Below, in pieces: positions 16,078 to 16,330 of a stretch of 40,403 nucleotides of DNA. Within the stretch, counting starts at the first letter, position 1. Each line of letters starts with the position of its first letter. The notes under the pieces were generated by a model. The model was given only the letters and a program-made list of their open reading frames with translations. It was not told the origin of the DNA and did not search any database. Source of the DNA: Acidobacteriota bacterium (GTDB taxonomy: Bacteria; Acidobacteriota; G020349885); the NCBI GenBank assembly GCA_020349885.1, contig CP070701.1, positions 1,869,836 to 1,910,238 of the forward strand, given 5' to 3'. Made by a program: the position numbers and the translations under genes.

Positions 16078-16153
16078 TCCGCGGTAGCTCAGCTGGTAGA
16101 GCAGGTGGCTGTTAACCACCGGGTCGGGGGTTCGAGTCCCTCCCGCGGAGCCA
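16078..16153 (+). tRNA. tRNA-Asn (anticodon GTT)
   Basis: The cloverleaf is complete. Acceptor TCCGCGG (16078-16084) pairs with CCGCGGA (16143-16149), with G discriminator and encoded CCA (16151-16153). The D arm contains GCTCAGCTGGTAGAGC. The anticodon stem GGTGG/CCACC encloses CTGTTAA, giving anticodon GTT. The T arm contains TTCGAGT. Its 3' end is duplicated twice downstream. Confidence 0.96.
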
Positions 16154-16330
16154 CTTTTATGGTCGGGGCCCCGCCCAAAGGTCGGGGTAAAGCTACGCTC
16201 CAAGGGGCTTGTCCCGAGAAAGTCGGGATTCGAGTCCCTCCCGCGGAGCCACTTTTATGGTCGGGGTAAAGCTACGCTCCAAGGGGCTTGTTCCGACAAA
16301 GTCGGGATTCGAGTCCCTCCCGCGGAGCCA
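16131..16330 (+). repeat. Tandem copies of the tRNA-Asn 3' end
   Basis: The last 23 nt of the tRNA including CCA (16131-16153) recur at 16229-16251 and 16308-16330. The spacers are nearly identical, giving units of 98 and 79 bp; the first unit has a 19-bp extra GC-rich segment. Each spacer holds a small hairpin (TCCCGAgaaagTCGGGA in the first). Only the first copy belongs to a full tRNA. Repeats of a tRNA 3' end are what tRNA-targeting integration leaves behind, but slippage amplification is also possible. No integrase is present. This explains most of the gene-free stretch after the tRNA. Confidence 0.85.

Follow-up and report, generated by a model that had tools for sequence, protein, structure and literature searches.

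The tRNA-Asn(GTT) gene of an Acidobacteriota bacterium (GCA_020349885.1, contig CP070701.1) is followed by two further exact copies of its own 3' end, and the question is how these tails came to stand in a row. The window, i.e., the whole stretch of DNA analyzed here, is 40,403 nucleotides long. The original prediction, made from the window alone, regarded the tails either as stacked attachment sites left by repeated integration and excision or as a slippage array that uses the tRNA tail. Here the array is read as belonging to a group of partial tRNA-gene copies joined to REP-like hairpins, generated by hairpin-associated partial duplication and then slippage. The probability of this reading is put at about 0.6. 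To our knowledge, the main other example of such an arrangement of partial copies and hairpins is a single tyrosine tRNA operon of E. coli, and we know of no explanation for the origin and use of those tyrT repeats.

Structure of the tRNA-Asn Array

The tRNA-Asn(GTT) gene was placed at 16078-16153 by ARAGORN and Rfam, and tRNA alone scored above the gathering score in the Rfam scan of the window. The 23-nt tail of this gene from the T-loop to CCA, TTCGAGTCCCTCCCGCGGAGCCA, occurs exactly at 16131-16153, 16229-16251, and 16308-16330, just as predicted. The features of the array are as follows.

16037-16064, + strand: promoter-like site before tRNA-Asn (consensus scan only, 9 of 12 matches; mean of shuffles 0.6)
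16078-16153, + strand: tRNA-Asn(GTT), intact, CCA encoded (ARAGORN, Rfam)
16131-16153, + strand: tail copy 1, T-loop to CCA, within the tRNA-Asn gene (exact match)
16154-16251, + strand: unit 1, 98 nt, composed of trailer, hairpin module A, GTAAAGC, hairpin module D, and tail
16167-16187, + strand: hairpin module A, GGCCCCGCC..GGTCGGGG, dispersed elsewhere in the genome (genome matches to query 41-68)
16204-16228, + strand: hairpin module D, GGGGCTTG and TCCCGA..TCGGGA, ending flush at the T-loop TTC (genome matches to query 77-106)
16229-16251, + strand: tail copy 2 (exact match)
16252-16330, + strand: unit 2, 79 nt, like unit 1 without 19 nt of module A
16283-16307, + strand: hairpin module D of unit 2, with two stem-keeping changes relative to unit 1
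16308-16330, + strand: tail copy 3 (exact match), followed by unrelated DNA

The spacers had been described as near-identical. This holds for the last 72 nt of the two units, which are 97% identical, but the spacers are 75 and 56 nt long, and the extra 19 nt sits in the first spacer, within its first hairpin. No terminator-like site was found at 15950-16800. A genome-wide search for the Asn tail with up to 3 mismatches returned the three array copies and one match with 3 mismatches (reversed-pattern control, 0); apart from the latter, no distant copy of the tail was detected at this threshold.

The predicted border with AT-rich accessory DNA was recovered as to composition, with a GC content of 0.48-0.49 from about 16.0 to 17.5 kb, 3' of the array, but no mobile-element gene was seen in this AT-rich DNA. 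The AT-rich segment at window 16382-17354 contains small ORFs of no matching family and adjoins a catalase-peroxidase gene. The two small ORFs 3' of the array have no PHROG or NCBIfam match, and one of them, put to Pfam, had none there either. Beyond the catalase-peroxidase lies SelB (window 20050-21999, reverse strand), and ARAGORN called a tRNA-Sec elsewhere (L018). Because SelB and tRNA-Sec are both encoded, the organism probably uses selenocysteine.

Partial Copies at Other tRNA Genes

The Asn body recurs once in the genome, 3' of tRNA-Thr(TGT) (74% over 156 nt, E-value 4.9e-19). This copy closes with the Thr tail and not with the Asn tail, and therefore the flanks of all tRNA genes were surveyed. 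The tRNA set consisted of the RF00005 matches (n = 48), and flanks were extracted for each. All other tRNA genes were masked before copies of the own tRNA were scored, and the control consisted of 2162 mismatched tRNA pairs; 47 distinct tRNAs entered this control-pair scoring, against 48 in the count that also keys on flanks.

A partial self-copy adjoins 7 of the 48 tRNA genes firmly and one more possibly, a count that may be low because some flanks contain N-masked stretches (L011, L038, L045). Each of these copies matches its own tRNA. Partial self-copies are thus present at several tRNA genes and not at the flagged one alone. Tail copies lie downstream of Asn, Thr(TGT), Ser(CGA), Asp, Glu(TTC), and perhaps Leu(GAG), and 5' head copies lie upstream of Ser(GGA) and Ser(TGA). 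At Ser(CGA), a 94-bp unit is present in two tandem copies.

None of the 2162 mismatched pairs scored as high as the own tails of Asn (24), Ser(CGA) (23), and Thr (22), or as the own heads of Ser(GGA) (27) and Ser(TGA) (24). The scores of Asp (16), Glu(TTC) (14), and Leu(GAG) (12) were equaled or exceeded by 2, 4, and 6 of the 2162 controls, respectively. In all six controls scoring at least 12, the tail comes from a Ser or Leu tRNA (or from tRNA-Sec) and the unit is that of Ser(CGA) or Leu(GAG). The Leu(GAG) copy is listed as a possible one.

Relatives were compared at the phylum level only. A search for the Asn body in 60 phylum relatives returned tRNA-Asn tails only. Own-tail or own-head copies with a score of at least 12 were found at 2 of 133 tRNAs in three phylum relatives (1/43, 1/47, and 0/43), compared with 8 of 48 here (Fisher p = 4e-4; p = 0.0015 with the 7 firm cases). 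The three relatives were hand-picked: G046, in which a repeat had already been seen, and G026 and G058, which are single contigs. As G046 was picked for its known repeat, the rate in relatives is, if anything, too high.

The cases in G046 and G026 are alike in kind to the copies described here. G046 has a second copy of tRNA-Asn (L057, reverse strand, about 1500-1600) that has lost the 5' acceptor strand and whose anticodon stem is lengthened symmetrically into a long perfect palindrome. In G026 (L188, reverse strand, about 600-970 of the reverse complement), a copy of the tRNA-Val tail starts in the T-loop; the tail and a terminator-like hairpin are repeated about 250 nt downstream, after a hairpin-rich stretch. 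Six matches to the Asn body in a pattern scan of genome contigs came from unrelated taxa and were taken as chance from their number and taxa. Among known RNA families, sub-threshold sX4 and plastid matches overlapping tRNAs and two weak sRNA matches elsewhere in L013 were dropped.

Hairpin Modules in the Units

The fillers of the units are hairpin modules, GGCCCCGAC..GTCGGGGTAAA, TTTATCCCGAC..GTCGGGATTG, CTTGCCCAGAC..GTCTGGGTTG, and CTTGTCCCGA..TCGGGATTG, and mosaics of them are common. Parts of the Asn body match other places in the genome. The pattern CCCGACN{2,14}GTCGGG, which is its own reverse complement, has 65 matches genome-wide versus 6 for the reversed control. Among the palindrome matches listed, 6 fall in tRNA units (Asp 1, Glu 2, Ser(GGA) heads 2, Thr 1), and hairpin density by the tRNA genes may be no higher than the general intergenic density. 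A wide distribution of the 79-bp unit outside tRNA genes, which would have marked it as a dispersed repeat, was found for its hairpin parts and not for the unit as a whole. Near position 1500 of L109, L111, and L106, multi-module hairpin mosaics with TTGCCGG-type linkers are present; they are dispersed in the genome, and no known transposase is associated with them.

The modules resemble REP, REPIN, and BIME sequences in being short GC-rich palindromes with many dispersed copies, inverted pairs, mosaics, and fixed short flanks. Unlike REP and REPIN, they are lodged in tRNA copies, and the Y1 transposase PF01797 (REP type, RAYT) was not found in the genome, which is 95% complete. The REP resemblance is therefore one of form only, and REP transposition by RAYT was rejected on the same ground. 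The title of PMC3733652 names GTAG/CGTC tags; tags of that form were not observed here, where the flanks are CTTG, TTTA, and TAAA. That survey of tagged palindromes describes insertions of REPs into various genes, and clusters that contain tandem copies (PMC3733652).

To locate the hairpins within the copies, each unit was aligned to its own tRNA with long gaps made cheap, and 200 mononucleotide shuffles were used as the control. All alignment scores exceeded the best of the 200 shuffles, that of Leu by little (24.0 vs 20.0). The Asp unit aligns as GTCGCGG, 25 nt, GTTCGAGT, 22 nt, and CCCGTCGGCCCCGCCA, the last block beginning with CCCGTC. The Glu unit aligns as TTCtCGGCGGCGgCACG (ending in CACG), 48 nt, GGTTCAAAT, 42 nt, and CCCGTCGGGGACGC (beginning with CCCGTC). 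In both, the duplicated T-arm is interrupted by hairpins at both edges of the T-loop, and the two Asp inserts are, by eye, approximately reverse complements of each other. At Ser(TGA), the 5' head up to CTTG is followed by 63 nt and AAAACCGGAGTCCCGC (AAAACC), and the break lies inside the anticodon loop; TATAATGGAAATTGG is repeated before both copies. The alignments of Asp, Glu, and Ser(TGA) are colinear, and their matched pieces join up without the loss of a tRNA base.

By eye, the anticodon arm of the Ser(GGA) heads is replaced by a hairpin; the aligner matched the first 27 nt only. For Asn, Thr, and Ser(CGA), the filler meets the T-loop TTC on its right. On the left, the flanks are 5-8 nt only in Asn and ambiguous in the other two. 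The inserts that are firmly placed (Asp 2, Glu 2, Ser(TGA) 1, and Tyr of E. coli 1) are, as judged by eye, at most 2 nt from a loop or inside it.

Relation to Attachment Sites

If integrative elements had entered at the T-loops, brought or displaced tails, and then lost nearly all of their DNA, stacked attachment-site copies would be left. In Asn, Thr, and Ser(CGA), the repeated 3' part of the tRNA begins at the T-loop TTC, and in tRNA-Val of G026 it begins inside the T-loop; direct repeats of this kind would be expected from T-loop attachment sites. According to PMC2647930, citing Williams 2002, the T-loop and the anticodon loop are among the sublocations that attachment sites occupy in tRNA genes. 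Four matches to the integrase domain PF00589 are present in the genome, and two of them are beside tRNA genes, just upstream of tRNA-Arg(CCT) (L104, G000:C1:1065426-1065917) and just upstream of tRNA-Phe (L105, G000:C1:367704-367814, a 37-position fragment only). None of the four, however, is at tRNA-Asn. With no integrase, island, or distant attachment-site copy at tRNA-Asn, stacked attachment sites are unlikely.

Other features of the units point the same way. No element lies between the repeats, the fillers belong to the genome-wide hairpins, and those at Asn and Thr are similar despite different tails. The Asp and Glu blocks are broken by hairpins, and two loci copy heads. No match was found in viral contigs (by pattern), phages, or plasmids. 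The tRNA-Arg(CCT) tail beside the integrase gene has no extra copy, its two further matches being other tRNA-Arg genes, and hence it gave no positive control for attachment sites.

A separate locus carries the 5' half of a tRNA-Gly-like gene (L055:1501-1570, G000:C1:1824876-1824945, 30.8 bits), with AT-rich DNA in place of the 3' half. This half gene was possibly broken by an integrated element.

Relation to the tyrT Repeats of E. coli

The tyrT/tyrV region of E. coli, used as a positive control, gave four matches to RtT (RF00391, Rfam), and no match to RF00391 was obtained in the seven loci scanned here with E-values up to 1. The layout is nevertheless comparable. As in the tyrTV RtT/RttR repeats, the tandem units each repeat the tRNA 3' end together with hairpin-rich filler. 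The first rttR unit aligns to tRNA-Tyr as CTTCG, 3 nt, AAGGTTCG, 68 nt, and AATCCTTCCCCCACCACCA; its T-arm copy is split in the T-loop by filler, as in Asp and Glu here. Unlike in RtT/RttR, the sequence is unrelated, the units are 79-94 bp rather than 178 bp, several tRNA genes are involved rather than one operon, and heads as well as tails are copied. By sequence comparison, the array is tyrT-repeat-like in layout and not a member of the RF00391 RNA family.

Bosl and Kersten (1991) reportedly dealt with the tyrT RNA product. By analogy with tyrT/rttR, the trailer units, which bear tails and fold strongly, may be part of the tRNA transcript and yield small RNAs when it is cleaved, and an RttR-like RNA product of the units is possible. 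Passages of two papers concern the enterobacterial repeats: the 2025 REP survey places rttR among the REP-hosting small RNAs (PMC12306157), and a Salmonella comparison gives a 175-bp VNTR at the rtT RNA (PMC2658671). In the literature searched, which does not extend to the key reports of the tyrT RNA and of integrase sublocation, neither split T-arm repeats nor a bacterium with tail repeats at several of its tRNA genes was found to be described.

It is improbable that each unit has been kept by selection for a structured RNA with a tRNA tail, acting as a processing decoy or a small RNA in the way of RttR. Besides the E. coli precedent (RF00391), such a role would be consistent with the perfect tails of the Asn and Ser(CGA) units, with the two Asn hairpin differences that keep the stem, and with the folding of six of the seven folded units better than shuffles (z from -2.4 to -4.9). 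The exception is Asn unit 2 (z = -1.5), and tRNA-Asn with part of unit 1 (150 nt) folds no better than shuffles (z = -0.53). Recent duplication can also give perfect tails, palindromes would fold well whatever their use, and the copies at Asp, Glu, and Leu, like those of the heads, show decay or breaks.

Origin of the Units

The partial duplication associated with hairpins, favored above, could proceed as follows. Hairpins near or in tRNA arms would stall DNA polymerase, and a template switch would copy part of the tRNA gene next to the hairpin. Alternatively, hairpins may lodge in an already duplicated, dispensable tRNA copy. Slippage between units would then amplify the 79-bp and 94-bp units. 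That the cause is either template switching or insertion is our inference, and only events leaving one intact, working tRNA gene would survive.

The slippage array of the original prediction survives in part, in that the tandem 79-bp units of Asn and 94-bp units of Ser(CGA) resemble slippage products. Simple slippage would leave trailer and hairpins after the last tail, but these are missing in Asn and Thr, and only 17 nt is present in Ser(CGA). The last Asn and Thr tails run into unlike downstream DNA, as they would after an insertion, and the CCA is missing from the proximal genes of Thr and Leu and present in the distal copies. Insertion with target duplication therefore fits these tails better. 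As a full account, the insertion of a small mobile element that duplicates a long target of variable length at tRNA ends is very unlikely, since the copied lengths are unequal (23, 21, 40, 16, 14, and 12 nt), the fillers vary, and a REP-type transposase was not found in the genome. tRNA introns, which need an otherwise complete gene, were rejected as the copies lack part of the gene.

Hairpin-associated partial duplication could have a wider and more speculative counterpart. An active process might place or grow palindromes at the loops of tRNA copies, giving the inverted hairpins on both sides of the T-loop and the lengthened anticodon stems. Distant bacteria would then have gained RttR-like RNA units next to many tRNA genes, independently of one another, and E. 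coli rttR would be one instance. The chance of this is considered small.

The present case cautions against taking every tRNA-tail repeat for an attachment site. The layout of the tyrT repeats, shared here by seven or eight tRNA genes together with a dispersed hairpin family that supplies the filler, offers a way to ask about the origin of such units and whether they have any use.
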